A stretch of DNA of 64,000 bases from Acanthochlamys bracteata (Eukaryota > Streptophyta > Magnoliopsida > Pandanales > Velloziaceae): positions 5,345,725 to 5,409,724 of the forward strand of contig CM034129.1 in NCBI GenBank assembly GCA_019914995.1, written 5' to 3'. The position numbers and the translations under genes are program-made. Numbering within the stretch: the stretch's first letter is position 1; each line of letters starts with the position of its first letter. Of this stretch, positions 29,536-43,330 are shown piece by piece. Under the pieces are notes generated by a model, which worked only from the letters and a program-made list of their open reading frames with translations, searched no databases and was not told the DNA's origin.

Positions 29536-30192
29536 CTTTGTTGTAAAATCCAGAACGGTCCGTTCGGATTGGTCCGAAAATTATCGATTCGGAACGTAAA
29601 TTGGTTCAAATTTATAATAAAATTATTTATATAATCGACCCATTCTGACCCTCTTCGACCCGTTCCAATCCGATCGATCAACTCGTTTGGATCAAATCGG
29701 ATTAAATTAAATTTTTAAAAATTTAAATTTATAATATATTGATGCAAAAATAATTATTAGTAGCTTTATATTGAAATATAATATATAGTTTAGATTTTAT
29801 ATTTGGATATGATAATGCAAAAAAATAAATTATTATATTTTATTTGTAAATATTTATTATTAGTGATTTTTATATTTTTATATTACTAATTTTGTTAAAT
29901 TGTAAGAAAAATAACAAAATTATTTTAAAACAAAAAATTTCTTTTAAAATTTATTATTTAAAATATTTTTTTGTTTTCTATATCTTTTTAGTTAGTTGAT
30001 ATTTTTCTTTTATGCCTTCTAACAAAGAAAAAATTTATTATTATTTTTTTAAATAATAAGCGTTCGCACTATCGTCAACACTTTAATATTTTTGACATGA
30101 CGGTTCAACTCATTGATCCAATGGGTCAATCCGTGACCCGTTGATCCGGACAATTTTTCAGTTTAATATCCGATCTGATTTTTACAACTATG
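29536..30192. mobile_element. hAT-like non-autonomous TIR element, family CATAGTT, copy B
   Basis: It matches the 36.1 kb copy along most of its length, from TTGTAAAATCCAGA through GATATGATAATGCAAAAAA and AATAATAAGCGTTCGCACTA to TTTTTACAACTATG. The left terminus has diverged and I could not confirm its 8-bp duplication. No transposase ORF is present. Confidence 0.75.
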
Positions 30193-31503
30193 TTCTTTGG
30201 GTTAGTTGAAGTAACTCTTTTTTCGAATTAGAACATATTTTAATTACCAAATATTTCGTTTTCACATTTCATATTTTTTATTTTACACTTCATATTTTTT
30301 AAATTAGTATTTTAAAATTTATTTTTATTTTTATATTAAATTTTATTTTTACAAAAATTGAAGTTCAAATTTTATTTTATATATTTTAATTATTATTCAA
30401 ATTACATATATTTTATTTTCTATCAAAATTTATTTTTACAAAATTTATTTCCACGCGCTAAAAAAATCTTTGAATTCATTAAGTTTACGAGAGAGTTGAA
30501 TTAGTTGGATTATAAAGAAAAGAATTTAAATTTGTATTTCCAGATATATTATATTTGAATAGATATAAAAAACGTGACTAACTTTTGTCTTTTTTTAAAA
30601 CCTTTTTTCAGAGAATGAGAGCTTAAGTGTAATCAGAACATCAAAATATAAATTAAAATATGATTTGACGAGTTTCAAAGTGAAATCGTGCAATTTTAAG
30701 GTTTAAGGTTATTCTCACAAAATACATTAGGGCCATGTTTGGGATTGATTTTTAGTCAGAAAAAAGTACTCAATTATATTTAGCATATTTGATAATGCAT
30801 ACTTATTGTTAAAATAAACTGCTCGTTGTGCTAAAAAAAACATCAAATACATGTTTTTCATAACAAGCTGCGCGGGGGCTTTTTTACACGTATTCAAATA
30901 ACCATTCTACCCGTACTAACTTAGAGAAATTACAACATTATATAATCATTCATATTCCTACTCTTTCCTCACAGGCTCTCATTTTTCCATCTCTCCCGAT
31001 TTCTTTGTTTCTTCTTCTCTCGCTCGGGTTGGTTCCGTGCCGAAAGGAGACCGAAGAGGCTTCTATTCTTTTCTTCCATTGGTGGAGGTATTTCTTGTGA
31101 TGAATTTGTTTTTGTTCTTAATTGGATCGGATTTGTTTGTGGTTTTGAGATCTAGGGATTTCTCTTTACGAATTTTTGAAAATTTTGTTAATCTGCCGAT
31201 CAATTGATTGGTGTGGTTCTTGATGGCCAAGAGATTCTGTGTCGACAGACTTAAGAAAAAATTACGAATTACTAAGGTATTTTTTATTGTAATTTCATTC
31301 TAGACGGATGTATTTTCATGTAATTAAGGTCTCAGTAGATATTAATCTTTTGTTCTATATCTTTGCTTTAGGAGCTTTTGGTTTTAATCTGAATAAAATA
31401 TACTGTTGAGGTTTTAATTAAATCTATCAACCAAGATTGCGTGATAAATTGTTCTTCTCTGCTTAAATTCTTCTATTCGATTTGGTTTTAGAAGTTTGTA
31501 AAG
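30193..31503. other. AT-rich spacer and retained promoter/leader of the RPT1 copy
   Basis: 30.2-30.9 kb is AT-rich spacer with no gene. From about 30.95 kb to 31.5 kb pyrimidine-rich stretches (for example CTTCTTCTCTCGCTCGG near 31010) look like a plant promoter and leader kept upstream of the broken RPT1 coding region. Confidence 0.4.
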
Positions 31504-36104: not shown

Positions 36105-36710
36105 CATAATTGTAAAATCCAGACCGGCCGATCCGGTCGACCCGAAACATAAATCGGTCCGGATTTATAATAAAACCGTTTATACAATCGACCCGTTCTG
36201 ATCCGGGTCGAACCGAGTTAAATTAAAATTTTCAAATTTTAAATTTGTGATATATTGATGCAAAATAATTATTAGTAGTCTTATATTGAAATATAATATA
36301 TAAGTAATATTTTATATTTGGATATGATAATACAAAAAATAAGTTTGTTATATTTTATTTGTAAATATTTATTATTAGTGATTTTTAAGTTTTTATATTA
36401 CTAATTTTGTTAAATTGTAAGAAAAATAACAAAATTATTTTAATACAAAGAAATTCTTTTAAAATTTATTATTTAAAATATTTTTTTGTTTTTCTATATC
36501 TTTTTTATTAGTTTAATTTTTTCTTTTATGCCTTCTAATAAAGAAAAATTTTATTATTTTTTCTTTTGAAATAATAAGCGTTCGCACTACCGTCAACGCT
36601 TTAGTATTTTTAATATGACGGTTCAACCCATTGTTCCGACGGATCAACCCGTGACCCATTAACCTGGACAGTTTTCCGGTTCATTATCCCGTCCGATTTT
36701 TACAACTATG
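36105..36710. mobile_element. hAT-like non-autonomous TIR element, family CATAGTT, copy C
   Basis: The 606-bp element has inverted ends CATAATTGTAAAATCC and (as inverse of the right end) CATAGTTGTAAAAATC. The flanks TTTTCAAC (36097-36104) and TTCTCAAC (36711-36718) match at 7 of 8 bases, an 8-bp hAT-type duplication. No transposase is encoded. Confidence 0.8.
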
Positions 36711-37909
36711 TTCTCAACCTCAAGAAAGGTGGATTAATAACTCTCAAAGCATCTTAGGGCATATTTATTATATTTAGAATTTAATGTATACCAAAAACTA
36801 GTTCCGAAGAGTTTTGTATTTATCTTTTACTTTCTTCTTGTAATTTTTAAATTTCATTTTTCATAATCATATTTAAAATTAAAAATTCTATTGTTATAGT
36901 CAGTAAAAATAAATAATAAAATAGAATTCACTCTTAATAATAATTTTTTAAATAATTTAATTTTCGTAATTCATTGTCAGTCATAGTAGACAAGCCCTTA
37001 GTGTCTGTTTAGATATAGAAGTAATAAATAAGAGTAAATAAGAGTAAAATTAAACAAGAGTAGATTATTCGGGTGGAGACGAGAGTAAGAGTAATAATTT
37101 ATCTCGTCTTGTTTGGATATATTAATAAGGATAATAAAGAGTAGATAATTAATCTTATTTGGTAAATAAGAGTAATTTTTATAAAATGTCTGAAATATTC
37201 TTTTATATTTTATTGTGTTTTTTTATTAATCAAAGCTGATTTTTTAAGTTTGGGGATGCTTTGCTATAGAAGTTGTGAAGAGAATAGGTAAAACCGTGAA
37301 CAAAAACGAAGGAGAACCCATGGGCAACGAGAGCTATTACTAGTTCATTATTATTACATATATTTATTCATGGTTAAAAATGGAATATAGAAGAATGAAT
37401 TTGTTCATTGATTTTCATGCTGTTTATGTTTTAATTTATATCTAACTTTTGGGAGACTTTGAAGCAGATTTTTATTTTTTTGTTTTTCCTAAAAAAGGAC
37501 AGCAAAAGCCTCAAGATAAAGTAGCATCTTTCTGTACTGCTTTATTTGAAATGAATTGATTATCATCCAGATCTCATGCTACTGATTATGTGGTTTCCTG
37601 TTTCCATACATGAAAAGGTTTCAATGTTAACTTTCCAACAAAGCCATGGCATATATATTTTTGTTGTACATGAAACCATCAAACAACATGTTTGGGAGAA
37701 AATAAAACAAGTATATCAATGACGAATCGTTTCACAAACAATCTTTTATACTATACAACATTGAAGGCAAAGAAGTACAACCTTTACAGAATACAACATT
37801 TGCTTCACTGGTATGGTTCGGAATCTTAAGATGGACATCTAATTCTAATGCTCTGAAAATTCGATGTGAAGAAAAAAACATTAACACATTAATAATCAAA
37901 TGCATATAT

Positions 37910-38215
37910 TTAGCTGAGTTTTGCTTTGCTTTCTTGGATTTCATCAACACCCCTTAAAAAACGGACCACAATACAAGTGGTGTTATCTACGCTTCCTCTA
38001 TAACTAGCTTCTTGCATCAACGTATTAGCTGCCTCTTCTGGTTCTTTGATAGGCTTAACCATAGAAACACCCTCCTGAAAATAGCTTTTTGTCAATGCAT
38101 TAAAAAGTTAAGACTAGTGATGATACCATTTCATCAATGAGAAGATCTGGAGAAGTGTTGCTTTTATATATACCTCATTAGAGACATGCATGACTCCATC
38201 TAGAACCGAAGGCTT
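37910..38215 (-). pseudogene. Protein phosphatase 2C, C-terminal fragment
   Basis: Two exons of a clade like Arabidopsis PP2C59/WIN2 can be read. 38174 to about 38215 gives LDGVMHVSNE, equivalent to the family's SDGLWDVVSNE but with the conserved Trp lost. 37910-38074 gives EGVSMVKPIKEPEEAANTLM and then RGSVDNTTCIVVRF, the final beta strands carrying the conserved metal-binding Asp-Asn, and stops after ESKAKLS. The intron between them has a GT donor and a CAG acceptor. Everything upstream of these exons in a normal PP2C is missing; RopGAP sequence takes its place. It cannot be an active phosphatase alone. Confidence 0.75.
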
Positions 38216-39638
38216 TGGTGTCCGTTAGAAGATCTGGATACAGGAGTTGAATAGACTCTAACATCACTTCCTGCCTCTCTCTGAGTATCTTTTTCTATCA
38301 GCATCTTGATAAAATTCATTACTTGCACTGCATACATCAGTGCACTTAAAGGATCCACCATCTGCCATAACATGATAGGTGAAATAATTGTATCACAAAA
38401 GAGATACACAAAGGACAACTCAAAAGTCATTCAAATGAACATGTAATGCTGGAAAGGAAAAATAATGAGCATACTACATGAACAATAGAGATTTAAAAGT
38501 TATCAACTTATGTTAATAGAAGTGTTCTTGTAAAGGTATAAGAACACGTGATCCTGTACAGTATTAGCTGCATTAGACTGCAGGATATCTACTAAACTAT
38601 TAACAACATTACATTATAAGGATAAAGATGCATTAATTCTGAAATTTCAACTAGAAGCATCTTGCATATACCAGAGTTGAAATTGTTATGAGATAAGAAG
38701 ACAACCATTGAGGCTCATTTATAATCTTCATATTAACATTAATTTCTACAACAAAAACTAAATAATGAAGGCTAAGATATGAAAGAAAAAATATTACCTG
38801 CGTCATATTTGGAGTAAATACCAAAGCAATATTGCGCTCTTCTTCAAGAGCCAGCCATCAAATTTATAGCTCAATCAAGTAAGGCAGTATGTTAGGATCG
38901 GGTCCCGCACTAAAAGAATTTGCTAACCTCTTAGAGATTAGTATCCCCTACTTATAAGCACATATCCATCCAAGCACCCAGCCAATGTGGGACTATTAAG
39001 GGGCGTGGGCTGTTAAGCCCACAAAACTAGGATCCAGTTGGCCCAACCCAAGTTAGCTAGCTCGTTTTCACTTGGGCACCATTCCAGGCCCCTACGCTAC
39101 TAACCCGGACCTAACCCACCAAACTAATTCGTCTTTCACTTGAGCTCACCAAGCCCTACACGCTACTAACCCGAGCCTAGCCTAACTTGGAGGCCCAACA
39201 GTATGCGATTGCGGGAGTAGTTTAACAAGTTGACCACATTCCTCTTCAGACTAGCACAGCATTACTTGGTGAGGAGATAGATCATCCAACACTCCAGTTG
39301 GTATTTCTCTGAACCAGGCCTATTAAAGCACTAAGAAATTCCAATCATCAAACAAAATAATTCAAAGAGGGCTACATTGCTCAGAAGCAAGATAGTTGTT
39401 CTAAATATAAAAAATCCAACTAAGACACCTTCTACAGTGCAGATACTACCATAAAATAAAAAACAAAAATAATGGACTACTCTGAAAAGAAAAAGAAGGT
39501 TTCACATTATAGAGAACTACTCTGAAAGATATGTGATATGATCATTAGTGGTATTAGCAAGAATATTATCAGTACCTATTCCCTCTTCGGTCATATGAAC
39601 GTTGCATTGATTCAGTAGAAATACAAAAAATAGTAGTT
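38216..39638 (-). pseudogene. RopGAP (CRIB-RhoGAP) fragment interrupted by a solo LTR
   Basis: Plant RopGAPs switch off ROP GTPases. Fragments in order on the minus strand: 39576-39638 gives STESMQRSYDRRGN; an exon starting at 39319 gives AWFREIPTGVLDDLSPHQVM, then an in-frame stop and SEEECGQLVKLLPQS; after a 0.3-kb solo LTR the same exon resumes and ends at 38799 with EEERNIALVFTPNMTQ; the next exon, from 38361, gives MVDPLSALMYAVQVMNF, then TPVSRSSNGHQS. The exon carrying the arginine-finger part of the GAP domain was not found between 39319 and 39576, nor was the CRIB motif. Sequence passes without a gap into the PP2C fragment near 38216, making a chimera. Confidence 0.8.
38892..39198 (-). 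mobile_element. Solo LTR (fossil), family 1 copy B, inside a RopGAP exon
   Basis: In inverse orientation this is the same LTR as at 17.3 kb: TGTTGGGCCTCCAAG at its start, a CCCACATTGGCTGGG block and GCTTATAAG near the end. It is flanked on both sides by CAGTATG (38885-38891 and 39199-39205), part of which belongs to the target duplication. No internal domain is present. It splits the RopGAP exon, so it arrived after that sequence was in place. Confidence 0.8.
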
Positions 39639-39969
39639 CTGCAAAGAAGTAGGAACATACAGTTAATTTCATCATCAAATCTATGAAATGTCAAAAGCAT
39701 TATTCAAGTTCGTATAGGGTCAACTTTCATCCAAATATTACGGAACAAGAATACTATGAACTTCAAGCATGTCATCATCAAAATACAGTAGTCTTCTCTC
39801 TTCAGCCATAACTAATGTCAGCGCTAGGCATTAAGATGTAGCTTCTTTGAAGGTCTAATTTAGTTTGAAAACGCAATACGATCTATGTCTCGATACTCTC
39901 TAGATATAGAATCAAACTCGGGCAAATATAATAAGAATAGAGTTAGGATTAAAAGTTGAAATTTATATT

Positions 39970-40150
39970 ACCATGGTGATTGATTTAGGGATTGTTCGAT
40001 CAGCAGAAAGAAGAATCGAACTCCGGCAATGAAGAAGAAGAAGAAGAAGATGGTGATTGTTTGGTCTTGAGATCTTTGGAGTTTTCGATCGACGACGATG
40101 AGGCGGCAGGAGCGGCTCGGTGAGATCAAAGACAGGCGCGGGTGAGCGGT
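39970..40150 (-). other. GC-richer leader-like stretch with AAG/CTT repeat
   Basis: The minus strand reads as a pyrimidine-rich leader (CTT repeats at about 40028-40049) ending in ATG followed at once by GTAATA, like a first exon ending at a start codon. Its parent gene is unknown; it may be the promoter end of the chimera downstream of it. Confidence 0.35.
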
Positions 40151-40674
40151 TGATCGTGTGAGAGACGAGAAGAAAACAAAAAAATATTAAACATAACAAA
40201 ATAACATAGACATGGGAATTTCAAGTTGTCTACAGACACCAAAATTACTCTCCTTCTCGTTACAATCCAACGTGGGGTGTAACAAATTAATCCCCAATAA
40301 AGATTAATGAAGAATAAATTTTTTTTCATTAATTTTATAAATTTATTATCAAATAATAACAATGAAAAGTAATTAGTTTACTTACTCCTAATTGCTTTTC
40401 AATACTCTCGATCCAAACAAAGTGTTAATGTTTTTTGTTATCGCCACTCTATCTTCGCATCTTGCTTCATGAAATCTAGCTTGGATGGTAAGGGCATCTT
40501 AATGCCACCAAAGTAGCTTGGGCTCGAATTAAAGAAAGCTGTAGATCATAGAGAAAGAGAAACTTGGTAATAATATTTACGATTTTGGGAAGCTTTACAA
40601 TGTAGTGAAAAAGATATAACTAAGCTAACATTTCATGATTCTTCAAGTATAACACATATAGCTTCTCTTTTTAC

Positions 40675-43330
40675 TTATGAACTATAAGTCGGTAATGAAG
40701 CAGAGCTATTTAGCTGAGAATTATTGATGACAGATGAGTGCGTGCTTGCTTGTGTCGAGGAGATTTTACTAAGGAAATCTATGCTGTTATTGCTCTTTGC
40801 ATACAACTGAAGTGATCTTGGAACTGGAGGGATTTCTACATCTAAAACCTTCTCTAAAATCTGAACAACTTTTCCCATCGTTGGTCGATCGTTCTCATGA
40901 TCTTGAATGCACCAGCATGCAACCTTACAAGTTCTTGCAACTTCATCCATGCTTGCTTCACCTTCTAATCTCTTATCCAATAGAGAAACAACATCTCCTT
41001 CTTGCAATTTAGAAGCTGCAAGTAAAGGGAAATAAAATGAAATATCGCCTTCAACATTCGAATTCCTGTTTCCTGATATGATCTCGAAAAGCATAAGCCC
41101 GTAACTATATACATCAGCTTTGGTTGTAATTGCAATGCCGGAGATCCATTCAGGGGCAAGGTAACCTATGGTGCCTCTCACTGTAGTGAGTACTCTGCTA
41201 AAATCTCGACCCATGAGTTTTGCGAGCCCAAAATCTGCTACTTTCGGATTGGAAAAAGAATCCAACAGAATGTTTTCTGGTTTTATGTCGCAGTGTATGA
41301 TGCAGTCTCTACATTCTTCGTGAAGATAAGCTAATCCTCTTGCAATGCCAAGAGCAGTTATATACCTTGCATTCCAATCAATGACTTTGTTTCGGTTGTG
41401 AAACAATAAGTCGGCAAGAGAGCCGTTAGGCACATAGTCATAGACTAGCAATCTTTTCTTTCCTTCGGAGCAGAAACCACGGAGGCGAACAAGATTAACA
41501 TGCTGGATCGTACCGATTGTGCTTACCTCTGCACGGAACTGCTTCTCACCTTGATGAAAACCTTCCAATTGCTTCACAGCAATAGTTATTTTTGTGTCTG
41601 GCAACGTTAACTCCCCTTTGAACACTGAGCCAAACCCTCCTTTACCAAGTGTGTCAGAGAAATTTTTGGTAGCTTCTTTAAGCTCACTATAGCTGTACAA
41701 TACCAAGTTCTCATCCACGGCCTTCAATTTCAAGCTTCTGCTTATTTTCCGTCTCTGAACTATAAACTTGCAAACAATAGCCAAACAAGCTACTACCATA
41801 GCCATAGATATCACAGCAGTAATCAGACCGATGATCCTTGCCTTGTTATACTTAGAACTACTTGGCATATCAGAAGCTGCTACCCGAATATAAATAGTGT
41901 TACCAGTTCCATCATGCAACTGTATAAGATTAAACATATCTCTATACCATAGCATGCAACTGGTATTGTATGAATAAGCAATACAAGAGCAGTTCTTCAA
42001 ACAAGCCCATTTACATTCTTCGGTGTTTGCTAATGCTAATTTCTGGAGACCTTTTTCTGGGAATGCCATATCGTTCATCTCATAGAACCTATCGGTAGAG
42101 GCAGTCAAGTTGCTGCTACACTGCAACGCAGTGTTTCTCTTGCAACCGACGGCTTGGTCACCCAAATTCCAGTACGCTGGCACGGACGGGCTAAAACCCC
42201 TTAAATTGGAAAAAACTAAACCAGTTTTAGTTCAAAGTTTCTAATGTAAACTGCTCATCAACTTATATATGAACAAATTAGCTTTCAATTTCAGCAATTT
42301 ATTCTCAAGAGTGAATTTCTAACATGGAATTAATAGTAATTGTGAAAAGTTACCTAATGCAGCTGCAAGGCGGTGAGGCATCCTCATGACAACTTCCGAA
42401 TGAACCGCAGAGTCCATAAACAACACACTGACCTCTGGGCTCAGACCAGAACTGAACCCATTCCCTTCCATTAGGTCCCAAAATTTGCTTCTGCAAAGTA
42501 AGGTGGCCGGAAGTGTCAACTATGCCTGTAACAATGCTCTTTCCATCCTTAACCCAGTAAGTGTAGTAATTTTCTCTCTCGTTACTAACATATTCATAAC
42601 CAAGTATGCCCTCATTCACAGAGAGAGCAGGCTCACTACTGAAGAAGTGAATCCCGTTCGACCATAGCCCTGACGACCAGTAGATTTCCAAGGAGTTCCA
42701 CCAAAAGAACTGGTTCGATCCATTCGGATCAATCGACAAGGAGAAATCCCCTGGCGATGGATCATCGTTCGTCTTCCACGACGTAATCTTCTGGACTTGT
42801 TTAGTCAGTTTGTTCATTCCTAGCTTTCCACCGGGCAACCAAACGTTCGCCGGATGATCTAAACTTTGCCATATGATCAATCCATCTTTCAGTAAAACAA
42901 AATTACCGTTATCTTTCAATACAGCAGCGGTAGTAGTTGTAGTGGTTCTCGAATTTGATTGTTTGGACGTCGATGAAGTTATGTTGGTGGACCAAAACAA
43001 AGATGTAAACTGAGAAAGAACAAGGTTTCCATCATCGGATAGTCTGAGTTTGACGGTTGTTGGATCAGTGATTGGTGATTCTCTATTGGCTACCCAGACG
43101 ACTGTGAGCTGGGTCTGAGGGAGATTGTTGAACCATATGCCAAGGTAGTAGTTGGAATTGCTATCTATTCGGAAGAAACCCAGAACGAAGGTTCCGTTGC
43201 CGGAGACCAGAGTTTGGTTGCCTGAGAGAGACTGGTTGTATCTGAGAATATCTATTGCTCCGAGGAAGGAGATACTGAAAGCTTGCAAAATAAAGAAGAG
43301 TAAGAGAATGCGTGCTAGCATTATCAACAT
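40675..43330 (-). CDS. G-type lectin S-receptor-like Ser/Thr protein kinase (At2g19130-like)
   Basis: A plasma-membrane receptor kinase of 833 residues from two exons, 42354-43330 and 40675-42199, joined at a CSCIR|GFSPS codon by a 154-bp intron. Order: signal peptide (about 1-25); bulb-type mannose-binding lectin domain (GNQTLVSGNGTFVLGFF, YYLGIWFNNLP, VVWVANRESPI); S-locus glycoprotein domain (YWSSGLWSNG); Cys-rich link (CVVYGLCGSFGSC); PAN/apple domain at about 364-431 (ECKWACLKNCSCIAYSYN); membrane segment at about 448-472; kinase with GKGGFGSVFKG, AVKQLE (Lys about 535), IIHCDIKPENILL (about 626-638) and ADFGLAKL. The residue before the catalytic Asp is Cys, so it is a non-RD kinase, a class often tied to immune signalling. 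All catalytic residues are present and the length fits the family. Many members lack introns, so the short intron is a small oddity. Ligand unknown. Confidence 0.95.

Follow-up and report, generated by a model that had tools for sequence, protein, structure and literature searches.

The window, that is, the whole stretch of 64,000 nucleotides analysed here, contains a 3.4 kb element at positions 37001-40424 that carries, between two terminal regions, pieces of a RopGAP gene and of a PP2C gene preceded by a 5' leader. The element is flanked by a target-site duplication, TTA (left copy 36998-37000; identical right copy 40425-40427, placed by flank alignment). The left terminal region (37001-37316, plus strand) is of the PIF/Harbinger type and starts with GTGTCTGTTTAGAT, and the right terminal region (40182-40424, plus strand) ends with ATCCAAACAAAGTG; both were delimited by dispersed matches and by alignment. 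The two 14-bp ends of the window copy agree at 9 of 14 positions, as counted by eye. The terminal inverted repeats are of a single family type, which reads GGGTCTGTTTGGAT in better copies, and we take these ends to resemble those of Tourist elements. A preliminary description of this DNA had given the element imperfect inverted ends, which are indeed present, but its limits of 37005-40420 had to be corrected to those above, and the AGTGT that it regarded as a shared flank consists of the A of the TTA and the bases with which the left end begins, the true flank being the 3-bp TTA.

Cargo and source loci

Three unlinked host loci supplied the cargo, which is stitched together in the transcription order 5' leader, RopGAP middle part, and PP2C last exon with 3' region. 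The PP2C fragment (37317-38185, minus strand) comprises the end of an exon, an intron, the last exon of 54 codons and the 3' region, and is 82% identical to a locus on chromosome C8 (L012:3758-4612). The RopGAP fragment (38188-39913, minus strand) consists of exon pieces and introns, and matches a locus on chromosome C3 (L013:3017-4830) in four blocks with 80-88% identity. The parental exons match the Pfam domains RhoGAP and PBD in the case of RopGAP, and PP2C in the case of PP2C. As described before, the two fragments lie head to tail in the same orientation and have kept introns, and the parents that were to be looked for elsewhere were found on C3 and C8, so not as neighbours. The third piece (39925-40181, minus strand), a 5' leader containing an ATG with GT after it, is 83% identical to a locus on chromosome C18 (L028, C18:6282855-6283116). 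A leader-like stretch had been noticed here, yet its origin as a third captured piece had gone unrecognised. An open reading frame downstream in the C18 source matches Pfam Sld5 at 0.0044, below the cut-off, and this source is possibly a GINS/PSF3-like gene.

The central exon that was reported missing is absent, which is explained by a loss, compared with the C3 parent, of approximately 295 bp, taking the end of one exon together with the next exon. The RopGAP part also contains a later insert (38890-39203), made up of a solo-LTR-like repeat of 309 bp and one copy of the 5-bp repeat CAGTA, with relatives on chromosome C1 (L016).

Copies of the chimera

A complete version of the three-piece chimera is present on C15 and a truncated one on C5. 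The RopGAP/PP2C join, the ~295-bp internal loss and the frameshifts are identical in the window copy (C4), C15 and C5. The solo-LTR-like insert is missing from C15, and C5 has lost the region and is uninformative. The copy on C19 has kept the PP2C end, but in place of the RopGAP and leader pieces it holds the 5' portion of a rhomboid gene, 95% identical to C6:8373676-8375113. Its right terminal region resembles that of another family member, L056 (83%). The assembled unit has thus been mobile, with a complete copy on C15, a truncated one on C5 and a swapped one on C19. Based on the PP2C module, C19 grouped with C4 at a support of 100, leaving C15 and C5 outside, and the left-end module alone gave the same C4 and C19 grouping at a support of 36 only. 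C19 represents a cargo swap, which we infer arose after the three-piece chimera through replacement of its right half.

The head-to-tail order, single orientation and decayed state of the pieces would also fit two or three neighbouring resident genes that decayed in place, with accidental inverted ends. However, the parents are on three chromosomes, the same joins recur on C15 and C5, the flanks of the C15 copy differ, and both ends are dispersed repeats, which leaves this explanation a negligible probability.

Coding state of the chimera

The join between the RopGAP and PP2C pieces, previously put near 38216 and called seamless, lies at about 38186 and is out of frame: in its own frame NGHQS runs on as LRF-stop, LDGVMHVSNE belongs to a different frame, and the first half of the latter is RopGAP DNA. 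GATGGA was considered as microhomology at this join and rejected, since direct comparison assigned these bases to RopGAP, leaving at most 1-2 shared bases. At the C19 join, direct comparison suggests ACAA as the shared bases. Frameshifts in two RopGAP exons are common to all three copies that carry RopGAP (C4, C15 and C5), and the window copy has in addition a stop and the LTR insertion. In the C15 leader, TTG stands at the position of the window leader's ATG.

We considered whether the chimera could be a functional gene, with a start from the leader, a body from RopGAP and a last exon and 3' end from PP2C in a fused transcript that is translated. The three pieces are co-oriented in a gene-like order, no stop interrupts the 54-codon PP2C exon in any of the four copies, and the C4-C15 pair showed a dN of 0.073 versus a dS of 0.248. 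This has to be set against the RopGAP frameshifts and ~295-bp loss that the copies share, the out-of-frame PP2C join, the stop and LTR insertion in the window copy, where the longest stop-free stretch is 85 amino acids, and the TTG in C15. Moreover, in the other pairs, with few sites, dN was about equal to dS or above it (dN/dS of 0.104/0.116 for C15-C5, 0.091/0.097 for C15-C19 and 0.103/0.042 for C5-C19). RopGAP exons 4 and 5 were read for stops and frameshifts and lie outside the dN/dS comparison. Selection on the chimera as a sign of function was therefore rejected, given the inconsistent pair ratios, the few sites and a RopGAP part that is broken in all three carriers. A chimeric protein is unlikely because of the RopGAP frameshifts and the out-of-frame PP2C join, and a functional gene seems to us very improbable. 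From its sequence, the fused gene looks dead, presumably a decayed passenger and not a working gene, and in itself it probably has no importance.

Dispersed relatives and family assignment

Other chromosomes hold sequences 80-93% identical to parts of the element across hundreds of bases. For the left end, at least 29 further end-only matches of 77-88% identity were present among the 40 of 766 candidates that were scored. Paired, correctly oriented ends, the search for which had been proposed in the preliminary description, recurred in at least 18 of the 34 loci that were retrieved, a count chosen by hand from which L019, L042 and L051 were omitted for their weaker right-end matches. When 19 two-ended elements were aligned, including the window copy with TTA/TTA, exact TTA/TTA or TAA/TAA flanks were found in 14, and in 15 when one boundary was allowed a 1-base shift, compared to a chance rate of ~0.2%, a rough estimate from base composition. 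The flanking triplets of C15, C19, L020 and L037 mismatch by one or two bases. Beyond the triplet, the flanks in this alignment of 19 elements are dissimilar.

One relative, L063, has both ends and an open reading frame matching the Pfam transposase domain DDE_Tnp_4 (E value 3.4e-12), with degraded outermost bases and without a clean duplication. It was the only one of the five transposase loci fetched with both ends, the other four showing the right-type end alone. In L041, both ends and TTA duplications are accompanied by an N-terminal transposase-like reading frame that has no Pfam match itself, but relatives of this frame adjoin DDE_Tnp_4 matches. Members of the PIF/Harbinger superfamily generally have a second, Myb/SANT-like reading frame. 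A reading frame of ~170-230 amino acids lies close to the transposase in L060, L062, L063 and L064, and the two that were searched gave no Pfam match. In L038, pieces matching five loci adjoin one another. L017 and L054 are short family members of ~0.77 kb, presumably comparable to Tourist-like MITEs; they share the ends and TTA duplications of the window element but, unlike it, have no recognised gene cargo. In the window element no transposase coding sequence was seen, the longest stop-free stretch being 85 amino acids. Its ends, TTA duplication and dispersed relatives show it to be a mobile unit, and the relative with both ends that encodes a DDE_Tnp_4 transposase assigns it to PIF/Harbinger, as a non-autonomous DNA transposon of the Pack type. 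The earlier proposal of a Pack-type, gene-capturing TIR element was therefore borne out, many elements sharing the ends and the parents being unlinked.

MULEs make a duplication of ~9 bp and Helitrons are not known to make one, and Pack-MULEs are of a different superfamily than PIF/Harbinger, with different ends and duplication length. A capturing element of another type, such as a Helitron, a Mutator-like or a CACTA element, could be proposed instead, as could a segmental duplication, and Pack-MULEs and Helitrons are prominent capturers according to the review PMC13317346. The 3-bp TTA/TAA duplication in 14 of 19 elements, with no 9-bp duplication seen in their flank alignment, the DDE_Tnp_4 frame in a two-ended relative and the differing flanks past the triplet argue against this alternative, which we regard as highly unlikely.

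Origin of the cargo

Taken together, the element is very probably a Pack-type PIF/Harbinger element with a three-locus cargo, moved in trans and carrying a decayed passenger gene. Transposase from related elements, for instance on C1 and C17, would have moved it. The cargo may have been copied in at the DNA level, piece after piece, the probable mechanism being error-prone gap repair or template switching that followed excision, as suggested by the parents being still in place and the joins sharing little sequence. In the six source loci read (1.2-9.9 kb each), no family ends were found beside the cargo, L013 having only two short family-end matches, more than 2 kb from the cargo. An empty site was found neither in the window, searched with both flanks, nor in the genome itself, searched with the right flank, where matches elsewhere start ~380 bp from the insertion. 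The stretch 36500-36714 is itself a repeat.

How Pack elements capture genes is unsettled, and the review PMC13317346 leaves room for a route, still to be discovered, by which unlinked genes are captured. According to a published model (PMC8903248), put forward for Pack-CACTA and applied also to other Pack-TYPE elements, PIF among them, two insertions close to each other shed their inner ends and remobilise with the intervening DNA. The hybrid-like C19 copy, with a C4-like left half and a different right end type, would agree with it. However, there are no convincing remnant ends within the cargo nor beside the source loci read, the source genes persist, three unlinked loci would require several rounds, and the pieces in L038 that match five loci abut. 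Neighbouring insertions therefore appear rather unlikely to have built this cargo.

Comparison with other gene-capturing elements

The window element belongs to the known Pack-PIF kind, with an unusually traceable history. According to Gisby and Catoni 2022 (PMC8903248), Pack-PIF elements of maize and rice likewise have PIF ends and mostly TTA/TAA duplications, are non-autonomous, carry host gene pieces and form multi-copy clusters, one subgroup having pieces of two genes. An example from that text has gene pieces of 163 and 58 bp in elements of ~0.5 kb, whereas in the window element three loci contributed ~0.26, 1.4 and 0.87 kb, with introns and in gene-like order, and a sister copy swapped its cargo. 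Pifvine-3 of grapevine (PMC2528002) is similar in being a PIF family with transduplicated exons and introns, sometimes shared by multiple copies, but there the captured DNA is described as lying in a long 5' region of members of a transposase-coding family. The maize Bs1 element also combines segments of three host genes into a chimeric gene within one mobile element, but it is an LTR retrotransposon that moves via RNA, and its chimera is reported to be transcribed and translated; rice Pack-MULEs resemble the window element in their captured host gene fragments, with some chimeric transcripts (both from PMC13317346).

The family offers traceable steps, namely an ancestral three-locus chimera, its copies, and a half-replaced derivative with a located source; in addition, a sister element matches several loci, and the sources read remain in place. 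With these steps and persisting sources, rival capture models therefore become testable.

More speculatively, and with considerable doubt on our part, the family might act as a directional gene-end trap, whose right end would repeatedly acquire host 5' ends (leader plus ATG) in sense orientation, with elements exchanging the 5' module and keeping an older 3' module, as in C4 and C19, and being built by template switching and not from fused neighbouring insertions. Such a trap, if real, would naturally give rise to new leader-plus-exon combinations. A literature search on orientation bias in Pack-MULEs yielded nothing useful. The transposase genes of related elements read inward from the right end.

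Paired ends and transposase relatives place the 3.4-kb unit in a PIF/Harbinger family

The preliminary description of this DNA had proposed a gene-capturing element bounded by inverted repeats, and a genome search for the paired ends bore this out. Left-end-only matches occurred at at least 29 places (best 40 of 766 candidates scored), and right-end matches numbered at least 41, including the element itself and one short match (best 40 of 94 candidates scored). End pairs were checked in 34 fetched loci, two of which (L025 and L041) cover one place and some of which were too short to judge. From these, 18 further loci with both ends in the correct orientation were chosen, excluding L019, L042 and L051, which have weaker right-end matches. 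The 19 elements aligned, comprising these 18 and the window copy, were 0.77 to 4.97 kb long, and their flanks diverged outside three bases. The flanking triplets were TTA/TTA or TAA/TAA in 14 of the 19, among them the window copy, which spans 37001-40424 with TTA at both flanks. L043 would be added if one end were shifted by one base, and in the C15 and C19 copies (L009 and L011), L020 and L037 the triplets mismatch at one or two bases. The C19 triplets are TTT on the left and TTA on the right, a less clean insertion than that of the window copy. In better-preserved copies the end sequence is GGGTCTGTTTGGAT. Judged from its sequence, the window unit is a transposon.

At least 151 DDE_Tnp_4 matches were found in the genome. 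Locus L041 (C1:11192-16148) is an element with the two family ends and TTA duplications. It contains an ORF that had no Pfam match of its own and whose relatives adjoin DDE_Tnp_4 matches at several places (e.g., C17:549801-550277 beside C17:550404-550958). Five such transposase loci were fetched; all five have the right-type end, and only the C17 locus (L063) has both, its left end being 97% and its right end 76% identical to those of L041. The outermost bases of L063 are degraded, and its ORF matched DDE_Tnp_4 (3.4e-12) and Plant_tran (1.9e-08). Together, the two ends and DDE_Tnp_4 ORF of L063 and the neighbours of the L041-ORF relatives assign the family by homology to PIF/Harbinger. This kind of element is already known, since two papers describe Pack-PIF elements in maize and rice (PMC8903248) and grapevine PIF elements holding captured exons and introns (PMC2528002). 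In the parts available, the literature searched described neither a PIF element combining pieces of three unlinked genes in gene-like order nor a traced cargo swap; either may exist in print.

The cargo comes from three loci

The genome (195.5 Mb, 557 contigs), in which the window occupies C4:5345725-5409724, was searched with the interval first delimited for the element, and blocks were mapped by local alignment. Besides itself, this interval matched many chromosomes, and the matches fell into separate blocks. The PP2C piece (37317-38185) matches C8 (L012) at 82% and, more weakly, C11 (L015); the RopGAP piece (38188-39913) matches C3 (L013) in four blocks at 80-88% and, more weakly, a C5 paralogue (L014); and the leader piece (39925-40181) matches C18 (L028) at 83%. 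In Pfam, the PP2C parent exons matched PP2C (E 1.5e-57), and the RopGAP parent exons RhoGAP (2.6e-23) and PBD (1.6e-05). The C18 piece resembles the leader of a weakly identified gene; the downstream ORF matched Sld5 (GINS) at 0.0044, below the cut-off, and we take PSF3 as the candidate. The ATG|GT that ends the leader-like stretch noted before, at about 39.97 kb, occurs in the C18 locus as well, but the ATG, a candidate start codon, is TTG in the C15 copy.

The source loci persist in the genome. In the six that were read, three of them as stretches of only 1.2-2.6 kb, no family ends adjoin the cargo, and L013 has two short family-end matches more than 2 kb from it. The family-end matches listed within the cargo of the window, C15 and C19 copies, up to five per copy, are 17-35 bases long, with E values of ~0.0005 at best. 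Readable joins share 0 to ~4 bases, and ~ten bases of unclear origin lie at the leader/RopGAP join. In the capture model put forward in PMC8903248, neighbouring insertions fuse and take up the DNA. This fits less well than copying of the cargo into the element during repair, because the sources remain, adjoining ends are lacking and the joins share so few bases.

The fused gene is probably dead, and part of its damage predates the split of the copies

Both ends and the full set of three pieces are found in the C15 copy, which lacks the insertion at 38890-39203. In the C5 copy (L010), the left end and PP2C are accompanied by part of RopGAP; no right end was found within the stretch read. Common to the C4 (window), C15 and C5 copies are the RopGAP/PP2C join, an internal loss of ~295 bp and identical frameshifts, of which one falls in the first RopGAP exon captured and two, +1 and -1, in the last; the joining and breakage of the pieces thus predate the split of the copies. 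RopGAP module distances are 0.101 (C4-C15), 0.100 (C4-C5) and 0.117 (C15-C5), and those to the C3 parent 0.131 (C4), 0.133 (C15) and 0.105 (C5). A distance of 0.10 amounts to roughly 7 million years if 7e-9 substitutions per site accumulate each year.

The join had been described as running seamlessly from NGHQS to LDGVMHVSNE, which proved incorrect: it is out of frame, the window RopGAP frame reading NGHQSLRF-stop, and LDGVMHVSNE lies in a different frame that starts within RopGAP DNA. In the window copy, the next-to-last RopGAP exon is further damaged by a stop, the loss of 23 bases and the LTR insertion. Given this damage, the shared frameshifts and the out-of-frame join, the fused gene is probably dead. 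All four copies have an open PP2C exon, which in C5 is shortened in frame by 21 bases, but dN and dS gave no sign of consistent constraint across copies.

The solo-LTR-like insertion in the RopGAP part (38885-39203) has CAGTA on both sides. A relative, L016 (C1:6224764-6225498), has two direct copies of ~339 bp, ~57 bp apart; as the spacer holds a motif that we take to resemble a tRNA-Met primer site, this repeat is likely a TRIM-type miniature retrotransposon.

A probable cargo swap in the C19 copy

The left part of the C19 copy, end and PP2C, follows the window plan at 93% identity. The PP2C match breaks off in an intron, ~18 bases short of the last exon, and from there to the right terminal region (itself 83% identical to L056) the copy is 95% identical to C6:8373676-8375113, in non-coding stretches too. 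Within the C6-derived piece lies an exon coding for a rhomboid domain (Pfam 1.4e-11), and the alignment shows what appears to be a first exon; its ATG we infer to be the start codon. The PP2C module tree grouped C4 with C19 at a support of 100 (halves 93 and 95), leaving C15 and C5 outside, with 24 sites for this grouping versus 6 and 2 for the alternatives; from the left-end module alone, support was 36. The presence of RopGAP in C15 and C5 is most simply explained if the C19 ancestor carried it too and later lost it to the rhomboid piece.

Cargo and its direction in the wider family

The cargo of three further elements (L024, L038 and L037) was searched. The L024 interior occurs at nine places, itself included, at 85-95% identity (L046 and L047 among the relatives). 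Its cargo consists of two abutting stretches matching C17:4940329-4940855 and C1:120136-121015, and in the latter an ORF has its ATG just within the captured border; by these matches, L024 is a related Pack element with two-locus cargo. The L038 interior is tiled by stretches with abutting borders matching C19 or C9, C10, C17:2114018, C2 and C14, and L038, with L039, is possibly the most composite member seen, with matches to five loci. The L037 cargo is common to C16, C1 and C17; its strand was judged from what we take to be a PHP-like coding ORF, which had no Pfam match.

Coding reads inward from the right end in all four elements whose strand was judged (window, C19, L024 and L037). The right-type end lies 5' of the transposase-region ORFs, the same direction, in six of six transposase loci (L041 and L060-L064), the other end not being found in four. 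Right-proximal pieces were examined in the window, C19 and L024 elements, and all three contain an ATG. With four two-ended elements judged, this cargo direction may be regarded as a lead.

Just right of the window element, a gene on the minus strand (40680-42000), with DNA relatives on C3, C5 and C6, looks by eye like a receptor kinase. The left flank (36500-36714) belongs to a different repeat, which recurs within the window at 29984-30196 with 84% identity.
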